Positions 29,660-41,323 of a stretch of DNA of 64,000 nt are shown here, piece after piece. Location: NCBI RefSeq assembly GCF_039523335.1, contig NZ_BAAAFC010000001.1, positions 248,001 to 312,000 on the forward strand, written 5' to 3'. The first letter of the stretch is position 1, and every line of letters begins with the position of its first letter. The notes beneath the pieces were generated by a model. The model was not told the origin of the DNA. It saw only the letters and a program-made list of their open reading frames with translations, and did no database searches. The DNA comes from Marinobacter szutsaonensis. GTDB lineage: Bacteria > Pseudomonadota > Gammaproteobacteria > Pseudomonadales > Oleiphilaceae. A program made the translations under genes and the position numbers.

Positions 29660-30691
29660 TCAGGACGCCATGGCCTGGACCAGCCCGCTGGCACTGTTGA
29701 AGGCGCCCTCGACCCGACCTCCATCGAGCCAGTCGCCGGCCAGGCCGATGCCCAGCTGACCGAACCACAGGTGGCCGGGAAGATTCTCGCCACCGGAGCG
29801 GGCGTAGAGCCAGCGGTGCGGCACCAGATCATCCGGCTGAGCATCAGAGCCGGTGAGTTGCTGAAATGCCTTCACCAGCTCTGCACCCACCTGTTCGGGC
29901 GATGCATCCACGTGGGCCCTGGTCCACTCGGCATTCCCGTGCAGGACCCACCATTGCCCGGTGTCCTCACGGCCGGGCTTGCTGGAATTGTTGGCGACCC
30001 AGTACAACACCGGATGCTGGCAGCGAATGCCGTCAAACCCCGGATCCAGAGGCTGGCTGAAATGCGCCGCCACCGCCCAGCAAGGCACCACCGCCGATAC
30101 CGAATGCTCCAGCCGGCCTGCAACCTCCTCCAGAGCACTCGCCTGCATGAGATCCCTGGCCTGGGCCGGCGGTGCGGTTACGACCACCCGGTCGAAGCGG
30201 CCCACCATGTTGCCGCCGGTATCGACCAGTTCCCACTGACTGTCTTTACGGGCCATTCTTTCGATACGGGTCTCGGTGACCAGCTCAACATGGGCTGACA
30301 ACGCCCGGCTGATGGCTGTCATGCGGGGGGTTCCGACATACCGCTCTTCCTCCGGGAAAGGCTCCCTGCTTCCGTCCTGGTGCTGGAATACCAGGCGCCC
30401 CTGCCAGGTGGTGAAACTGCTGCCCCCGGCGTACCGGGTCAGGAAGTCCCGAAAAGCCGGGTTTCTGGCGGTAAAATACTGGGCGCCGATATCCGCAGAG
30501 CCTCCGGGAACCCGTTTCGCAGCCAGGCGTCCACCGGGGCCACGGCTCTTCTCGAACACGGTAACCGCATGCCCCTGTTCATTGAGTAAGATCGCTGCAG
30601 TCAGCCCTGCAATCCCTGAACCGATGACGGCAATACGGCGTATAAGGTGTCTGTCGGGTGCTTCATTAAACATCGTGTCTGGTGCATCCAA
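29660..30691 (-). CDS. Renalase-like FAD-dependent oxidoreductase
   Basis: A 343-aa flavoprotein with the dinucleotide motif IAVIGSGIAGLTAAILL near residues 20-36 and the following EKSRGPGGRLAAKR, typical of renalase/amine-oxidase-like proteins. It also has GAQYFTARNPAF and the C-terminal GDWLDGGRVEGAFNSA, where FAD and Gly-rich loops occur. Bacterial renalases oxidise off-form dihydro-nicotinamides, a possible role here. A second Met at residue 7 (30673) is another start option. It is divergent from the lipid-modification operon and may share its control region. Confidence 0.87.
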   Translation of the reverse strand: MDAPDTMFNEAPDRHLIRRIAVIGSGIAGLTAAILLNEQGHAVTVFEKSRGPGGRLAAKRVPGGSADIGAQYFTARNPAFRDFLTRYAGGSSFTTWQGRLVFQHQDGSREPFPEEERYVGTPRMTAISRALSAHVELVTETRIERMARKDSQWELVDTGGNMVGRFDRVVVTAPPAQARDLMQASALEEVAGRLEHSVSAVVPCWAVAAHFSQPLDPGFDGIRCQHPVLYWVANNSSKPGREDTGQWWVLHGNAEWTRAHVDASPEQVGAELVKAFQQLTGSDAQPDDLVPHRWLYARSGGENLPGHLWFGQLGIGLAGDWLDGGRVEGAFNSASGLVQAMAS

Positions 30692-30779
30692 TTTGAGTAA
30701 CGATTACGTAAAACCCCTCGAGCGTTGAGCGATGCTTCGCCGACTTGGTTTCACACAGAAGTAGAAGGGCAATCAGGGT

Positions 30780-31736
30780 ATGACCCGAGTGCAACACTGG
30801 TTTATAAACATTCTGAGGTGGTTCGACTCTGACGCGGGTTCGGATCACATCGACACGAGCTCCCGCTCCTTCAATTTCATCCGGGTAGTGCCATTCATTT
30901 TGCTGCATCTGGTATGCCTGCTGGCATTCTACACCGGGGCGAGTGCGTTCGCCGTCGGCTTTGCCGTGGCCTTTTTCCTGATCCGGATGTTTGCCATCAC
31001 GGGGTTCTATCACCGTTACTTCGCCCACAAGACCTTCAAGACCAGCCGCCCCGCCCAGTTCATCTTCGGTTTGCTGGGCGCCAGTGCTGCCCAGCGCGGT
31101 CCGCTCTGGTGGGCGGCCCACCACCGTCATCATCACCAGCACTCCGACCGTGAGGAGGACCTCCATTCTCCCCATCATGGCGGCTTCTGGTGGTCACACG
31201 TGGGCTGGTTCACCTGCGATGCCGGCTTTGCCATGGACGAACGGCGGGTGCGGGACTGGATGAAGTACCCGGAGCTGCGCTTCATCAACCGTTTCGATTC
31301 CCTGGTGCCGGCCCTCGCGGCGGTGGGCATCTATGGCCTTGGCGAGGCTCTGGCGGCCTTTGCGCCTTCCCTGGGCACCAATGGTCTGCAGCTGCTGGTG
31401 TGGGGCTTCTTTATCTCCACAGTGATGCTCTTCCACGCCACCGTCTCGATCAATTCGTTGTCCCACGTCTGGGGCAAGCGCCGCTTCGACACCAATGACG
31501 ACAGCCGCAACAATTTCTGGCTGGCCTTGATGACCCTGGGTGAAGGCTGGCACAACAATCACCACCGCTGGCCCCAGTCGGTCCGCCAGGGTTTCCGCTG
31601 GTACGAAATCGACATTACCTGGTACGGGCTGTGGTTGCTGTCCCGTCTGGGCATCATCTGGGATCTGAACCCGATACCGCAGCACATTCAGGAGGAAACC
31701 CGCAAGCTCGATGCGATGAGGAGGAAGCAGTCATGA
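30780..31736 (+). CDS. Membrane fatty-acid (acyl-CoA delta-9-type) desaturase
   Basis: A 318-aa integral membrane diiron desaturase. The three His boxes are HRYFAH near residues 78-83, HRHHH near 115-119 and HNNHH near 257-261, with paired membrane segments between them. Such enzymes introduce a cis double bond into acyl chains. It is the first gene of an eight-gene operon and its stop overlaps the next start (ATGA). The unsaturated chain it makes could be the substrate for the methyltransferase and flavoprotein encoded downstream. Confidence 0.92.
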   Translation: MTRVQHWFINILRWFDSDAGSDHIDTSSRSFNFIRVVPFILLHLVCLLAFYTGASAFAVGFAVAFFLIRMFAITGFYHRYFAHKTFKTSRPAQFIFGLLGASAAQRGPLWWAAHHRHHHQHSDREEDLHSPHHGGFWWSHVGWFTCDAGFAMDERRVRDWMKYPELRFINRFDSLVPALAAVGIYGLGEALAAFAPSLGTNGLQLLVWGFFISTVMLFHATVSINSLSHVWGKRRFDTNDDSRNNFWLALMTLGEGWHNNHHRWPQSVRQGFRWYEIDITWYGLWLLSRLGIIWDLNPIPQHIQEETRKLDAMRRKQS

Positions 31737-32200
31737 GCACAGCCTCAGCAATTGAAGTAGGTAGCAAGAACTCGGCCGTTCCGGCGACGATCGAACACTT
31801 CAAGGAGCTGTTCAACGAGCTGGACAAGGGAAACCTGAACAAACTCCAGGGGGTCTATAGCGAGGACATCCGGTTCCAGGACCCTTTCGGTCAGGTTATC
31901 GGTCTTGATGAGCTGACCCACTATTTTGCGGGTGCCTACAAGAACGTCATTTCCTGCAGGTTCGAGTTTGAACCTGCCGTCGCCAACGGAGCCTCGGTCG
32001 CCCTGCCCTGGGTCATGAAACTGCGCCACAAACGGATTCGTGGCGGTCGCGAAATTTCCGTGGATGGCATCAGCCATCTGGAGATCGAGGACGGCCGGGT
32101 GAGCTTTCACCGGGACTATTTTGATGCCGGCCAATTGCTTTATGAGAACCTCCCGGCGCTGGGACGGATCGTCCGCTGGATAAAAGGGCAAGCGGGATGA
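31733..32200 (+). CDS. NTF2-like (SnoaL-type) protein
   Basis: A 155-aa protein with an NTF2-like fold signature (FKELFNELDKGNLNKLQGVYSEDIRFQDPFG, then DGISHLEIEDGRVSFHRDYFD). The ATG at 31733 lies within the desaturase stop (ATGA), and the next gene also overlaps by ATGA. Small SnoaL-like proteins are regular members of this gene cluster type. The fold supports cyclases and isomerases as well as non-catalytic binding proteins, so its exact role is open. Confidence 0.87.
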   Translation: MSTASAIEVGSKNSAVPATIEHFKELFNELDKGNLNKLQGVYSEDIRFQDPFGQVIGLDELTHYFAGAYKNVISCRFEFEPAVANGASVALPWVMKLRHKRIRGGREISVDGISHLEIEDGRVSFHRDYFDAGQLLYENLPALGRIVRWIKGQAG

Positions 32201-32997
32201 GTACGCGATTGCAAGGACCGTCCAATATCTGGATCACGGGCGCCAGCTCCGGTATCGGCGAAGCGTTGACACAATCTCTTGCCCGTGGCGGACATCATCT
32301 GGTGATCACCGGGCGCCGGGCCGAAGCGCTGGAAAAACTGCGTGAACTGGCGCCTGAGCGGATCGTACCGGCCGTGGCGGACACCACCAGCAAGGAGGAC
32401 CTGGCCGCGATCGCCCCCGATCTGGATTCGGAGAAAAGTCTGGATATGGCGATCCTCAACGCCGGGACGTGCGAGTACCTGGAGATTGAGCACTACAGTA
32501 GTGACGTAATCGAAGCGAACATCGTGACCAATGTGCTCGGTACCGCCCGTTCGCTGGATATCGCCCTGCCCGCGCTGCGCCGCACCCGGGCAATGGGGCG
32601 GCCAGCCACGCTGGTAATTGTCAGCTCTTCAGCCTGGTGGTTTCCTTTTGGCCGGGCGGAAGGCTACGGTGCCTCCAAGGCAGCACTCAGTTATTTTGCC
32701 CATTCCCTCCGGGCCGATCTTGCCGCCGAAGGCATTGATGTTGTGGTGGTATCGCCCGGCTTCGTGAAAACGCCACTCACCGACCGAAACGATTTTCCCA
32801 TGCCCTTCCGGGTTTCCGCCGAGGACGCCGCCGAGCGTATCGTCAGCGGCCTGGCCAAGGGTCATAACGAAATTGCCTTTCCTAAGCGGTTCACCTGGAT
32901 GCTGAAGATCCTGGGCTCGCTGCCCGGGGCACTGGTTGACCGCATGGCCGCAAACATGGCGCGCAAGAATTCTGATCAACAGGAAAAAACCGAATGA
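32197..32997 (+). CDS. Short-chain dehydrogenase/reductase
   Basis: A 266-aa SDR. Cofactor motif WITGASSGIGEAL is near residues 12-24, NAG is seen as LNAGT near 88, and the catalytic Ser and YxxxK are in VSSSAWW and GYGASK (near 150-165). It probably acts on an NAD(P)-linked alcohol or ketone in the lipid pathway encoded by this operon. ATGA overlaps link it to both neighbours. Confidence 0.92.
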   Translation: MSTRLQGPSNIWITGASSGIGEALTQSLARGGHHLVITGRRAEALEKLRELAPERIVPAVADTTSKEDLAAIAPDLDSEKSLDMAILNAGTCEYLEIEHYSSDVIEANIVTNVLGTARSLDIALPALRRTRAMGRPATLVIVSSSAWWFPFGRAEGYGASKAALSYFAHSLRADLAAEGIDVVVVSPGFVKTPLTDRNDFPMPFRVSAEDAAERIVSGLAKGHNEIAFPKRFTWMLKILGSLPGALVDRMAANMARKNSDQQEKTE

Positions 32998-34259
32998 CCA
33001 ACGAACGTCAGCGTATTGCTGTCATTGGGGCCGGCGTCTCCGGCCTCACCGCGGCCTGGAAGCTTGCGGAGACACACGATGTTCAGCTGTTTGAAGCCGG
33101 CGGCTATGCCGGTGGCCACACCAACACCGAACAGGTGGAATCCGACGGCCGGACCTGGCCCGTCAATACCGGCTTCATCGTCTACAACGACTGGACCTAC
33201 CCGAACTTCATCAAGCTGATGGACCGCCTGGGTGTGGCCTCCGAAATCAGCGACATGAGTTTCAGCGTGGATTGCTCCTCCACCGGGCTGCAGTACAACG
33301 GCACCAGCCTCAACACCCTGTTCGCCCAGCGCAAGAACCTGCTAAACCTGCCGTTCCTGCGCATGATCCGGGAGATCCTGAGGTTCAACCGGGAAACCAG
33401 AAAGGATTTGTCCGACGGCAACATCAGTGACGCTGAAACCCTGGGTGAGTACCTGAACCGTAACGGTTACTCCCGGTATTTCCGCAACTATTACATCGTG
33501 CCCATGGGCGCGGCGATCTGGTCGGCCCCCGAGATTGTTCTGGAACAGTTCCCGATCCGGTTCTTCCTGCAGTTCTTCAACAACCACGGCATGCTGTCGG
33601 TGGACGACCGGCCGACCTGGCGGGTGATTAGCGGAGGTTCCGCCGAGTATGTGAAGAAAATGATGGAGCGGATCGGCGACCGCACCCACCTGAACAGCCC
33701 GGTCAGTGCCGTGCGCCGGCATGAGAACGGTGTGACCGTCGAGGTGAACGGTCAGAGCCACGAATTCGACCAGGTCATCCTGGCCTGCCACAGCGACCAG
33801 GCGCTGGCCATGCTGGCCGATCCGACCGATCAGGAGCGTGATGTCCTGGGCGCCATCGCCTACCAGAACAACGACGTGGTGCTGCATACCGACAGCCGCC
33901 TCCTCCCCTCCAACCGTCGGGCCTGGGCGGCGTGGAACTATTTCATGCCGCAACACAGCACCCAGCCTGTGTCAGTCACCTACAACATGAACATCCTGCA
34001 GAACTTCCACGACGCCCGGGAAACTTTCTGCGTGACCCTGAACCGCAGCCAGGATATCCATCCGGACAAGGTCATCAAGCGCTTTGAATACGCCCACCCG
34101 GTGTTTACCCTGGAGGCGGTCGCCGCACAGCAGCGCTACCATGAGATCGGCAACCGCAACCGTACCCATTTCTGCGGGGCCTACTGGTTCAACGGCTTCC
34201 ACGAGGACGGTGTGCGCAGTGCGGTTCGGGTACTGGGTGATTTCGGGATGGAGATCTGA
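32994..34259 (+). CDS. FAD-dependent oxidoreductase (amine-oxidase-like)
   Basis: A 421-aa flavoprotein with FAD motif IAVIGAGVSGLTAAWKL near residues 8-24 and the ensuing EAGGYAGGHTNT. The sequence PVNTGFIVYNDWTYPNF and the C-terminal GAYWFNGFHEDGVRSA are typical of the COG2907-like flavoprotein found next to DUF1365 and CFA-synthase-like genes. A related Rhodobacter gene in a similar cluster has been tied to furan fatty acid formation; transfer of that role here is inference. Confidence 0.9.
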   Translation: MTNERQRIAVIGAGVSGLTAAWKLAETHDVQLFEAGGYAGGHTNTEQVESDGRTWPVNTGFIVYNDWTYPNFIKLMDRLGVASEISDMSFSVDCSSTGLQYNGTSLNTLFAQRKNLLNLPFLRMIREILRFNRETRKDLSDGNISDAETLGEYLNRNGYSRYFRNYYIVPMGAAIWSAPEIVLEQFPIRFFLQFFNNHGMLSVDDRPTWRVISGGSAEYVKKMMERIGDRTHLNSPVSAVRRHENGVTVEVNGQSHEFDQVILACHSDQALAMLADPTDQERDVLGAIAYQNNDVVLHTDSRLLPSNRRAWAAWNYFMPQHSTQPVSVTYNMNILQNFHDARETFCVTLNRSQDIHPDKVIKRFEYAHPVFTLEAVAAQQRYHEIGNRNRTHFCGAYWFNGFHEDGVRSAVRVLGDFGMEI

Positions 34260-34261
34260 GC

Positions 34262-35146
34262 ATGGTCAGCCAGTGGCTTGAAGGGTCCGTCCGCCATCGC
34301 CGAATGCAACCGATAAACCATGGGTTCGAGTATGGCACCGGGATGCTGGCGCTTGATGTGGACGAATGGGACAGAATTACCGGCATCAGCCGGTTCTTCT
34401 CCCTGGAACGCTTCAACTGGATGTCCCTGCGCCGTGACGATTATTTCCGGCCGGAAGTCCGCAACCTGTCCGCCGCCATTCGCGATTATGTGCAGGATGC
34501 GACCGGCTGGTACCCGGACGGGACGGTGGAACTGATCACCCATCCCCGCTACTTCGGCTACGTGTTCAATCCGGTCAGCTTCTACTTTTGCTACGAGCAT
34601 GGAGAAGATCCTGCCGAGGGTGCGGTGCCCCGGGTGATCGTGGCGCAGATCACCAACACGCCCTGGCATGAACGGCACGTCTACTGCCTGGAGACCACGG
34701 GTGCGAAAGCCAATAGCGCGGGCTGGCGAACCGAGCGCTTCGGCTTCTCCAAGCGTTTCCATGTGTCGCCGTTCAATGGCATGGAGCAGGAATACCAGTG
34801 GACCTTCAGTTTCCGCGGCCCGGAGCTGCGCATCCACATGAACGTGTTCCAGGAACAACACAAGCATTTTGACGCCACTCTGGTGGTCCAGCGTACCCCC
34901 CTCACTCGTAAAGAATTGCACAGAAGCCTGCGCCGTTTTCCGGTCGAGGCGATCAAAGTGGTCGCAGGAATCTACTGGAACGCCCTGCGCCTGAAGCTGA
35001 AAGGCGCCCCGTTCTATACCCATCCGGACAAACTGTCCGGAGACGATCCGGCCTATCGCCGGGGAACCGAAGATGCCGGACTGGATGTGACCACCGGCAA
35101 TGACGTAAATACCATTGGTGGAAGGGTAAGCTCATGGAGAACCTGA
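34262..35146 (+). CDS. DUF1365 family protein
   Basis: A 294-aa protein with the DUF1365 core PRYFGYVFNPVSFYFCY near residues 97-113 and HERHVYCLE thereafter. The family is almost always found beside the FAD oxidoreductase and the CFA-synthase-like methyltransferase, as here. Its biochemical activity is not known to me. It begins two bases after the flavoprotein stop and overlaps the next gene by 13 bases. Confidence 0.9.
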   Translation: MVSQWLEGSVRHRRMQPINHGFEYGTGMLALDVDEWDRITGISRFFSLERFNWMSLRRDDYFRPEVRNLSAAIRDYVQDATGWYPDGTVELITHPRYFGYVFNPVSFYFCYEHGEDPAEGAVPRVIVAQITNTPWHERHVYCLETTGAKANSAGWRTERFGFSKRFHVSPFNGMEQEYQWTFSFRGPELRIHMNVFQEQHKHFDATLVVQRTPLTRKELHRSLRRFPVEAIKVVAGIYWNALRLKLKGAPFYTHPDKLSGDDPAYRRGTEDAGLDVTTGNDVNTIGGRVSSWRT

Positions 35147-36411
35147 ATACATCCGTCGATACACGCGAACATGCCGACTCGGGCAACTTGCCATTGATGA
35201 GTCGCATCGCCCGGCAACTGGTTCTTCAGCAGCTCAAGATCCTCCAGCACGGCGTGTTGACCATCAGGGAGGCGGGTGCCGAGCCCCTCGTCTTTGGCGA
35301 CGGCGATACCCGTTACGCCCCGGCCGAACTGGTCATCCACGACCACAGCACCTGGCGGGATCTGCTGACCGGCGGTGGTGTGGGTGCCGCCGAGGCTTAC
35401 GTGGCCGGCGACTGGTCCACCCCGGATCTGGTGTCGCTGTTGCGCTTCTTCACCCGCAATGTCGACCGGATGAACGAATTCGAGGACCGGTTCAGCTGGG
35501 TCACCAAGCCGGCGCTCAAAGGCCTGCACTGGCTCAACCGCAATACCAAAGAAGGTTCCCGTAAGAACATCAGTGCCCATTACGACCTGGGCAATGACCT
35601 GTTCGAAACCTTCCTGGACGCGACCATGATGTACTCCTCGGCCATCTATCCCCGCGAGGATGCCACCCTGGAAGAAGCGGCGGTACACAAGCTGGATACC
35701 ATCTGCCGGAAACTGGATCTCGGCCCGGACGACCGCGTGATTGAGATCGGAACCGGCTGGGGCGGCTTTGCCATTCATGCCGCAAAGCATTATGGCTGCC
35801 ATGTCACCACCACGACCATTTCCCGGGAACAGCTGGAGTTGGCGAAGGCCCGAGTAAAAGCTGAAGGACTGGAAGACCGCATTACGCTGCTGTTCGACGA
35901 TTACCGGGATCTCGAGGGCGAGTTCGACAAGCTGGTCTCCATCGAAATGATCGAGGCGGTCGGACCGCAGTTCCTGGACAGCTATTTCCAGCAGATCAAT
36001 GCCCTGCTCAAACCCGATGGCCTGGCCCTGGTGCAGGCCATCAACATGCCCGAGCAACGGTACGCGCGCGCCCTCAAGAACGTGGATTTCATCCAGCGCT
36101 TCATCTTCCCTGGCAGCTTCATTCCCTCGTTCGGTGCCATGCTGGAATCGGTGCGCAACGGCTCGAACCTGGTACTGACCCATTCGGAAGATATCGGTTT
36201 CCATTACGCCCGAACCCTGCGTGACTGGTGCGAGCGTTTCATGGCAAAGAGAGACACTCTGGAGCAGATGGGCTACGACCAGGCGTTCCGCCGCTTGTGG
36301 CATTTCTACTTCGCCTACTGCGAGGCCGGATTCAGCGAGCGGGCCATCGGCGTTTCCCAGCTGGTGTTTGCCAAACCCGGCAACAAGCGTGCGAACATCC
36401 TGAGCGTATGA
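35134..36411 (+). CDS. Cyclopropane-fatty-acid-synthase-like methyltransferase
   Basis: A 425-aa SAM-dependent enzyme of the CFA synthase family, acting on unsaturated phospholipid acyl chains at the membrane. SAM motif I is VIEIGTGWGGFAIH near residues 207-220, with the family segments ISAHYDLGNDLFETFLD before it and FIFPGSFIPS after it. Where characterised CFA synthases carry Cys in YSCAY (E. coli Cys139), this protein reads MYSSAIY, giving Ser169. The group may methylate a double bond rather than form a cyclopropane ring. Its stop overlaps the DUF2878 start. Confidence 0.9.
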   Translation: MENLNTSVDTREHADSGNLPLMSRIARQLVLQQLKILQHGVLTIREAGAEPLVFGDGDTRYAPAELVIHDHSTWRDLLTGGGVGAAEAYVAGDWSTPDLVSLLRFFTRNVDRMNEFEDRFSWVTKPALKGLHWLNRNTKEGSRKNISAHYDLGNDLFETFLDATMMYSSAIYPREDATLEEAAVHKLDTICRKLDLGPDDRVIEIGTGWGGFAIHAAKHYGCHVTTTTISREQLELAKARVKAEGLEDRITLLFDDYRDLEGEFDKLVSIEMIEAVGPQFLDSYFQQINALLKPDGLALVQAINMPEQRYARALKNVDFIQRFIFPGSFIPSFGAMLESVRNGSNLVLTHSEDIGFHYARTLRDWCERFMAKRDTLEQMGYDQAFRRLWHFYFAYCEAGFSERAIGVSQLVFAKPGNKRANILSV

Positions 36412-36929
36412 TTGCCTCGGAAACCTCCCGCAATGTTCTGAACTTCGTCCTGTTCCAGGCAGGCTGGCTTCTTTGTGTGCTGTATCCGAACCGGCTGGTG
36501 GTTCTGATCATAGGCGTGTTCCTGATTCTGCACTTCGTGCTGGTCAGCCAGAGGCGCTTCAGTGAACTGCAATTTATCGGCTTCGGTACCGTGGCCGGTG
36601 CGGCACTGGACACGCTCTGGTTCCAGACCGGCGTGCTCTATTCGGAGACCGCCGAGCTGCTGATCGTGCCACCGTGGCTGGTGGCGATCTGGGCCATTTT
36701 CATGACCACCCTATGCCATTCCCTGGACTGGATCAGCCGGAATCGCTGGTTGCCCTTTGTGCTGGCGCCTATTGCCGGTCCCTTTGCCTACTGGTCAGCG
36801 AGCAAGCTCGGTGCTGTGTCCCTGCCCGACCAGACTCTGTCACTGCTGGCGCTCGCGGCGGGCTGGCTGGTGGTGTTCCCGCTGCTGCTGTTCATTCGCA
36901 GGTACCTCTATCCGGAGCTTGCACAATGA
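36408..36929 (+). CDS. DUF2878 family membrane protein
   Basis: A 173-aa integral membrane protein with about five to six hydrophobic segments, fitting DUF2878 (FQAGWLLCVL, GTVAGAALDTLWFQTGVL, PPWLVAIWAIFMTTLCHSLD). The start ATG 36408 overlaps the preceding stop (ATGA); a longer frame would run inside the methyltransferase gene. It is part of the lipid operon by coupling on both sides. The function is unknown. Confidence 0.86.
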   Translation: MIASETSRNVLNFVLFQAGWLLCVLYPNRLVVLIIGVFLILHFVLVSQRRFSELQFIGFGTVAGAALDTLWFQTGVLYSETAELLIVPPWLVAIWAIFMTTLCHSLDWISRNRWLPFVLAPIAGPFAYWSASKLGAVSLPDQTLSLLALAAGWLVVFPLLLFIRRYLYPELAQ

Positions 36930-37669
36930 AAGGGATGCGTACGCCTGTCCTGGCCCTGTTGTTAGTGGCTGCCTCCGGAGCCTGTTACGGAAAAATCTTC
37001 CAGTTCTCCGGTGAGGCCCGGGCGGAGAATGGGGAAGTGCTCTACACCGAGCACCATCAGGTTGAAGGCGAATGTACCCAGGGCCAGTTCCGCCCCCTGA
37101 ATCACCAGGTGGAATATCTTGAACCAAATCAGAATGACAGCTTTGCGGAGAAATCACTCCGGTACGAACGTTCCCCCGTTCAGCCGGAAGTGGATTTCAA
37201 CCAGCCCCGTTTTGATGAATCGCTCCGAATCAGCTACCCGGGCGAAGGCATCATAGAGGTTGACTGGGTAACACCCTCAGGCGAAACCCAAGCGTTCAAT
37301 GTGCCGATTGAGGGGCGTGCCGTGGTTGATGCCGGGTTTGACAACCTGGTTCGCCAGAATTGGTCCGCCCTACAGGACGGCCGCTCAGTGGAATTCCGGT
37401 TCCTGGGCCCGACCCGGGGCGAACTCTATGGCTTTGTTCTTGAGCCGAGCGACCATCCCGATCTGGAAGCGGACCTCGAGGTCGCCATCCGACCCACCAG
37501 TATGCTCCTGCGCTTCCTGGTGGATCCGATACAGCTCGGCTATAACGATCAGGGCGCTCTCACCCATTACCTGGGCCTGACCAATATCCGCAGAAACTCC
37601 GATAGCAATTACCAGGCCCACATCCGCTACGACATCACCAGTTACCCGGAATGTGAACTGACTCCCTGA
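36926..37669 (+). CDS. Hypothetical exported protein, last gene of lipid operon
   Basis: A 247-aa protein with a signal peptide (hydrophobic PVLALLLVAASGACYG, residues 6-21; a cleavage near SGACYG is possible), so it should be periplasmic. The mature part is acidic and beta-rich, without a motif I recognise. Start ATG 36926 overlaps the DUF2878 stop (ATGA). Its position suggests a role in handling or sensing the modified lipid, but this is only an inference from context. Confidence 0.8.
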   Translation: MKGMRTPVLALLLVAASGACYGKIFQFSGEARAENGEVLYTEHHQVEGECTQGQFRPLNHQVEYLEPNQNDSFAEKSLRYERSPVQPEVDFNQPRFDESLRISYPGEGIIEVDWVTPSGETQAFNVPIEGRAVVDAGFDNLVRQNWSALQDGRSVEFRFLGPTRGELYGFVLEPSDHPDLEADLEVAIRPTSMLLRFLVDPIQLGYNDQGALTHYLGLTNIRRNSDSNYQAHIRYDITSYPECELTP

Positions 37670-40846: not shown

Positions 40847-40891
40847 ACGATTTCTGGTAACTTAGCCCCACCAAGATTGCGGAGGTTTTCC

Positions 40892-41323
40892 ATGGATATC
40901 CGAAAGATTGACGACACCATTTCCGTAGCGCCACAGATCAGCGTGGAAGACGTGGCCGAAGCGGCTCGACTGGGCTTCAAGACCCTCGTTGCGAACCGCC
41001 CGGACCACGAAGAGCCCGGCCAGCCGTCCATGGCGGATATCGAGGCCGCCGCAAAGGAACAGGGACTTGAGTGGGTCTACATGCCGGTTGAATCCGGCAA
41101 TATCACTGATGACGACGTGGATCGGTTTGCACCAATGATCCGTGACGCCGCAAAGCCCGTACTTGCTTTCTGCCGTTCCGGCACCCGTTGCACCGTCCTC
41201 TGGGCGCTGAGCGCTGCCCGCTCCAACCCAGCCCAGGAGATTTTCAGCAAGGCCCGGAACGCTGGCTACGACATCAGCGGCCTGGCACCGAGGATGGCGC
41301 AACAGGCACAGAACAAAGGGTAG
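40892..41323 (+). CDS. TIGR01244 / DUF442 family sulfurtransferase-phosphatase-like protein
   Basis: A 143-aa protein of the beta-lactamase-hydrolase-like (BLH/DUF442) family. The active loop is FCRSGTRCTVLW near residues 97-108, a rhodanese-like CRSGTR with the presumed persulfide Cys. ATG 40892 has GGAGG at 40881-40885; a longer frame starts within that site. Similar domains are fused to persulfide dioxygenases or YeeE units elsewhere, so a sulfide/persulfide role fits its neighbours. Confidence 0.87.
   Translation: MDIRKIDDTISVAPQISVEDVAEAARLGFKTLVANRPDHEEPGQPSMADIEAAAKEQGLEWVYMPVESGNITDDDVDRFAPMIRDAAKPVLAFCRSGTRCTVLWALSAARSNPAQEIFSKARNAGYDISGLAPRMAQQAQNKG

Follow-up and report, generated by a model that had tools for sequence, protein, structure and literature searches.

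A predicted furan fatty acid operon with an added desaturase in Marinobacter szutsaonensis

Which lipid is made by an operon that couples a membrane desaturase to a fatty acyl methyltransferase, and which sigma factor reads it? The question is raised by eight + strand open reading frames (ORFs) at positions 30780-37669 of a 64,000-nucleotide stretch of the Marinobacter szutsaonensis genome (NCBI RefSeq GCF_039523335.1, contig NZ_BAAAFC010000001.1, positions 248,001 to 312,000), called the window below. A preliminary description of this DNA had proposed a modified membrane fatty acid, with a lead to furan fatty acids (FuFAs) and RpoE-ChrR, and had left the product unknown. Judged from sequence comparison, the locus is probably a FuFA operon controlled by an extracytoplasmic function (ECF) sigma factor and carrying an added desaturase (probability about 0.85). 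The FuFA lead can now be put more firmly, on the UfaD and UfaO families and on a residue change in the UfaM group. The predicted product becomes a methylated FuFA, possibly altered by the desaturase.

The operon and its match to the furan pathway

The published pathway comes from Rhodobacter sphaeroides and Rhodopseudomonas palustris. There cis-vaccenoyl phospholipid is first methylated by UfaM; the FAD protein UfaD then introduces the 10,12-diene, and the DUF1365 protein UfaO forms the furan with oxygen taken from O2. RSP1087-1089 are dispensable in R. sphaeroides (PMC7380195). FuFA-gene mutants of R. sphaeroides have no rise of sigma-E activity under singlet oxygen (PMC6852236). In Halomonas sp. 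YLGW01 ufaM, ufaD and ufaO are consecutive, and its UfaM produces 11-methyloctadec-12-enoate in Escherichia coli (PMC12089945). Furan acids are also reported in Shewanella, Marinomonas and Pseudomonas (review PMC3528120). The pathway, its tie to RpoE-ChrR and the Halomonas occurrence are already known; new here are the SCD1-type desaturase as first gene and its union with NTF2 and short-chain dehydrogenase/reductase (SDR) genes. By Pfam, genes 4, 5 and 6 of the window operon belong to the same families as UfaD, UfaO and UfaM, one to one:

30780..31736, + strand: gene 1, membrane fatty acid desaturase of SCD1 type (PF00487; nine His ligands and an Asn)
31733..32200, + strand: gene 2, NTF2/SnoaL-like protein (PF12680)
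32197..32997, + strand: gene 3, short-chain dehydrogenase/reductase (PF00106; YGASK motif intact)
32994..34259, + strand: gene 4, UfaD-like, amine-oxidase-like FAD protein predicted to desaturate the methylated chain (PF01593)
34262..35146, + strand: gene 5, UfaO-like DUF1365 protein, predicted furan-forming step (PF07103, 1.4e-76)
35134..36411, + strand: gene 6, UfaM-like S-adenosylmethionine (SAM)-dependent fatty acyl methyltransferase (PF02353; S for C139 and Q for H266 in E. coli Cfa numbering)
36408..36929, + strand: gene 7, DUF2878 protein, a common companion in the sampled clusters (PF11086)
36926..37669, + strand: gene 8, predicted exported protein, matching no Pfam family

All junctions are overlapping or nearly so, with ATGA overlaps at five of them (1-2, 2-3, 3-4, 6-7 and 7-8), a 2-base gap at 4-5 and a 13-base overlap at 5-6. 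For genes 2, 7 and 8 the ORF finder placed the start at a GTG further upstream, and the ATG starts within the overlaps are preferred. The gene set, the coordinates and all seven junctions of the preliminary description hold against the ORF list, the sequence and, for seven of the eight genes, Pfam.

UfaO relatives occur in 53 of 185 genomes of the class (Gammaproteobacteria). At E below 1e-80, UfaD is matched in 72 of 249 genomes at phylum level; both counts include the window's own genome. Gene order was compared at loci from 40 of the 52 other class genomes, from 20 near genomes of the phylum set (L193-L212, with L206 of another class) and from 20 distant ones (L213-L232). At the nearer 60 loci, all outside the genus, ufaO follows ufaD in every case and ufaM lies within 6 kb downstream in 58; at the 20 distant loci the corresponding numbers are 18 and 11. 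Within the genus, the order desaturase-NTF2-SDR-ufaD is kept at 14 of the 15 loci with mapped gene order. Since this order recurs and ufaD and ufaO are neighbours at 60/60 outside loci, the arrangement is not due to chance. Among 80 named Rhodobacteraceae loci, 76 have chrR-rpoE divergent from ufaD-ufaO, followed by sdr, which fits the RSP1091-1087 operon of R. sphaeroides.

Gene 6 is a CMAS-family protein whose best-matching relatives of solved structure are cyclopropane fatty acid (CFA) synthases; on that ground the operon might make cyclopropane or simple methyl-branched fatty acids, its other genes tuning membrane fluidity and no furan being formed. Residues C139, E239, H266, I268 and Y317 of E. 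coli Cfa are taken here to be the bicarbonate ligands of the enzyme. Gene 6 carries S, E, Q, I and Y at the aligned positions and thus departs from the CFA set at C139 and H266. Q replaces H266 in 67 of the 69 sequences of the putative UfaM group (the window protein and 68 others with at least 34% identity to it and a score >140), and the remaining two have C, E, H, I and Y (CEHIY) and may be true CFA synthases caught by the selection rule. C139 is less telling, being kept in nine and absent in 60 of the 69. Elsewhere in the genome lie two more strong CMAS proteins (320 and 300 bits), both CEHIY like E. coli Cfa. Q in place of H266 would fit a methylase ending in an alkene and not in a ring, if this residue marks the reaction. 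With H266 and C139 replaced, two canonical CFA synthases elsewhere, and UfaD and UfaO co-conserved with gene 6, an operon for cyclopropane or simple branched acids is very improbable.

A shorter CMAS-like methyltransferase, 22-28% identical to UfaM, stands near the furan cluster in 15 loci (L075-L083, L085, L088, L091, L092, L095, L206). In this second CMAS group (n=15) H266 is kept in all and C139 is absent in 11. FufM of R. palustris, the enzyme for a second methyl group, has 26% identity to UfaM (PMC7380195), so dimethyl furans are possible at those loci.

Window UfaD is 40-42% identical to UfaD at five Rhodobacteraceae loci, four of them also showing ufaO, and window UfaO is 28-32% identical to UfaO at four Rhodobacteraceae loci of the ufaD-ufaO type; the reference sequences are relatives from comparable loci, and not the characterised enzymes of R. 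sphaeroides and R. palustris. This reference set, the generally low UfaO identity (27-34% to 41 Rhodobacteraceae UfaO, of 76 extracted) and the definition of the UfaM group by likeness to the window protein all tell against the FuFA assignment.

The structural model of UfaO (34262-35146, +) shows a beta-barrel fold whose similarity to nitrobindin is borderline. Across 42 sequences, H12, R14, D60, R138, H139 and NPVSF (103-107) do not vary, and these residues may belong to a cofactor site.

By homology, gene order and active-site residues, UfaM (gene 6) would methylate phospholipid acyl chains at a cis double bond, with SAM as donor, UfaD (gene 4) would convert the methylated chain to a conjugated diene, and UfaO (gene 5) would close the furan ring with one oxygen atom from O2. 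The most likely role of the desaturase (gene 1) is to provide or extend unsaturation in chains entering or leaving the route in aerobic cells, with the NTF2, SDR, DUF2878 and exported proteins as probable accessories. An ECF sigma factor would switch the operon on at 30684-30710, RpoE freed from ChrR by oxidative stress being likelier than a SigK/RskA type, and the furan lipid would scavenge reactive oxygen in the membrane.

The desaturase and the upstream modules

The genes in front of ufaD vary between lineages. A desaturase precedes ufaD at 12 of the 40 class loci (two more loci end just upstream of ufaD), at 0/40 of the phylum-set loci, and has no match in the 80 named Rhodobacteraceae loci. 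NTF2 precedes ufaD at 8/40 class, 17/20 near and 0/20 distant loci, and the two occur together at none of the nearer 60. The window's genus combines these two alternative upstream modules.

Nine His and one Asn are presumably the di-iron ligands of SCD1-type acyl desaturases. All of them (H78, H83, H115, H118, H119, N225, H229, H258, H261 and H262) are present in gene 1 when aligned to PDB 4ymk, and they are invariant across the window protein and 12 cluster-linked desaturases. Identity to these 12 is 48-57%, versus 24% to another desaturase of the same genome. Gene 1 lies outside the DesA family (NF049918), scoring 87 bits versus the curated 400 bits. An orthologue is found in 59 of the 61 genus genomes sampled; the two without it (G033 and G057) are 62% and 82% complete, and in G036 the desaturase is split into two pieces with a TGA.

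The desaturase is a candidate fourth enzyme of the furan route that may alter the product. No desaturase bound to a furan cluster was found in a search of the open-access literature at the level of listings and abstract openings. SCD1-type desaturases usually act on saturated acyl chains, which speaks against action after ring closure or on the methyl-diene; in that case a further unsaturated furan acid would be formed and the main product would not be 9M5-FuFA. This order of steps would help to account for a desaturase kept before ufaD in class loci, in a genome that already encodes FabA for ordinary unsaturation and a further four PF00487 genes, and unsaturated FuFAs do occur naturally (latex; PMC10558370), but it is judged unlikely. 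The favoured placement of the desaturase is supply or extension of unsaturation.

Gene 8 has weak relatives at five sampled loci (L080, L083, L194-L196), directly after DUF2878 at L194-L196.

The promoter and its reader

Two features precede the operon:

30684..30710 (C1:278684-278710), + strand: ECF-type promoter candidate with -35 GCATCC, N17 and -10 CGTA, conserved in the genus, 69 bases to the first ATG
29660..30673, - strand: divergent FAD/amine-oxidase-like gene, a neighbour outside the operon with a common intergenic region (ATG 30673; alternative start TTG 30691)

At 14 of the 15 mapped genus loci the divergent gene and the operon stand head-to-head, and a relative of this gene lies directly before ufaD in locus L098. 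The exact GCATCC...CGTA motif is found at 41 of 59 genus desaturase loci (17 bases between the elements at 40 of them, 16 at the other), and three other loci have another first or second -35 base. On the midpoint-rooted desaturase tree the motif state needs three changes and looks ancestral. An exact TGATCC promoter was looked for before the window operon and is not there.

As the preliminary description had it, no ECF sigma or anti-sigma gene adjoins the operon. The genome does encode rpoE-chrR 2.5 Mb away (C1:2818.7-2820.1 kb; TIGR02451 above cut-off, PF12973, sigma-70 r2/r4), and the ECF-type motif lies before the operon at 30684-30710, though its -35 is not TGATCC.

An RpoE orthologue (E below 1e-100) is present in 58 of 61 genus genomes, and TGATCC-N16-CGTA precedes both rpoE-chrR and a photolyase-like ORF in the window's genome. 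The TGATCC pattern has 19 matches genome-wide versus one in the control. Among genus rpoE promoters, NNATCC-N16-CGTA is found in 28 of 30 (TGATCC in 21, AG, CA or AA in place of TG in 7, GCATCC in 0), and TGATCC lies upstream of rpoE in 78 of 79 named Rhodobacteraceae regions. Before Rhodobacteraceae ufaD, NNATC(C/T)-N15..18-CGT is present at 77 of 80 loci, with TGATC(C/T) in 32 and GCATCC in 6; NNATCC alone has 66 matches there versus 3 in an equal background. By the genus rpoE and Rhodobacteraceae ufaD promoters, then, the first two -35 bases vary even where RpoE is the expected reader. The ChrR-dependent consensus of Vibrio cholerae, TGATC-N18-CGTAT, equals TGATCC with 17 bases, the spacing at the window operon (PMC5241685). 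RpoE-ChrR is thus somewhat favoured as reader over a sigma factor of the SigK/RskA type.

Two by-eye observations concern TGATCC. At G000:C1:1436436-1436461 (L122), TGATCC-N16-CGTA lies 77 bases before the photolyase-like ORF, which is likely an RpoE-ChrR target in this genome. At window 41136-41161 (+) the same pattern lies about 200 bases before a ferrochelatase-like ORF, within the preceding ORF 40877-41323; a ferrochelatase is also in a predicted RpoE2 unit of Shewanella.

A first reading had the same enzymes read by a SigK-like ECF sigma factor beside an RskA-type anti-sigma factor (C1:2010.4 kb), as a rewired regulon; the sigma survey, the tree and the Rhodobacteraceae calibration weakened it, and it is kept as a rival. 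The SigK-like gene (G000:C1:2010369-2010923, L295) is accompanied by an RskA-type anti-sigma gene and a divergent DUF4331 gene, and by eye the intergenic region that they share has GCATC-type -35 elements in both directions. Of 16 orthologues of the SigK-like gene (65-100% identity), seven have GCATCC-N16-CGTA ahead of the gene, six of them at a distance of 62-77 bases and the seventh at 120, but nine lack the exact motif, and the spacing is 16 there versus 17 before the operon. The exact operon motif is present in 28 of 32 genomes with the SigK-like sigma (E below 1e-80) versus 13 of 27 without it (Fisher p 0.0016, kinship ignored). These 13 genomes are scattered over the tree, so the motif can persist in genomes that lack the SigK-like sigma. 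RpoE-linked promoters vary at the first two -35 bases as well, GCATCC included. At four genus loci (L279-L281, L284; 4/59), all among the 15 that lack the GCATCC motif, TGATCC-N16-CGTA falls within the divergent gene, 65 bases upstream of the desaturase; it may reflect coding constraint on that gene, and if real it speaks for RpoE. Reading by the SigK-like factor is, overall, rather unlikely.

Several findings count against an ECF promoter read by RpoE. Spacing is 16 before genus rpoE versus 17 before the operon, with GCATCC instead of TGATCC. Genome G049 has the motif and the SigK-like sigma but no RpoE orthologue (best E 4e-12) and one short 130-aa Cupin_7 protein, a case that favours SigK. 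The motif is absent at 15 of the 59 genus loci, though rpoE is present in all 15 genomes; at 12 of these loci the desaturase match begins 30 bases or fewer from the divergent gene. Genome-wide, GCATCC-N15..18-CGTA has 22 matches versus 23 in the control, so only conservation and position carry weight; 21 of the 22 lie inside heuristically called ORFs, the operon's own being the sole exception.

A distinct furan-lipid branch is a tentative and rather doubtful extension of the FuFA reading: the cluster-bound SCD1-type desaturase would change the product, to an unsaturated furan acid or a positional isomer built on an acyl chain that is not cis-vaccenate, and the ECF promoter would have drifted or been rewired away from RpoE-ChrR.

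Meaning and comparison with known systems

Few bacterial sources have been defined for FuFAs, which are antioxidants in marine food webs, and the first gene of the predicted operon is nearly genus-wide among the genomes sampled. The change of H266 to Q may separate UfaM from CFA synthases, which are lumped together in databases. The singlet-oxygen link becomes testable in non-phototrophic bacteria.

An SDR gene is, we assume, part of the R. sphaeroides furan operon; SDR is present at 77 of 80 Rhodobacteraceae loci and also in the window operon. The window shares with R. sphaeroides and R. palustris the three families UfaM, UfaD and UfaO, with ufaD adjoining ufaO; ufaM lies beside ufaD/ufaO in R. 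palustris, as in the window, whereas it is outside the operon in R. sphaeroides (PMC7380195). Only the window has the added desaturase, NTF2, DUF2878 and exported protein, and it differs from Rhodobacter in that rpoE-chrR is not adjacent and the -35 is not the same. In Halomonas sp. YLGW01 the three ufa genes are consecutive as in the window, the UfaM product was shown in E. coli, and the available part of the paper mentions no desaturase in the cluster (PMC12089945).

Shewanella oneidensis has cfa in a predicted RpoE2 unit of the RpoE2-ChrR regulon, with -10 CGTA as at the window operon (PMC4336711), and in V. cholerae the CFA-type VC1122 is induced by blue light, the ChrR-dependent consensus having the same -10 and 17-base spacing as the window operon (PMC5241685). 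The -35 is TGATC(C) in Shewanella and Vibrio versus GCATCC before the window operon. E. coli Cfa (PDB 6bqc) shares with gene 6 the CMAS family and SAM methyl transfer to an acyl double bond, and is set apart from it by C139 and H266 of the bicarbonate site, where the window protein has S and Q.

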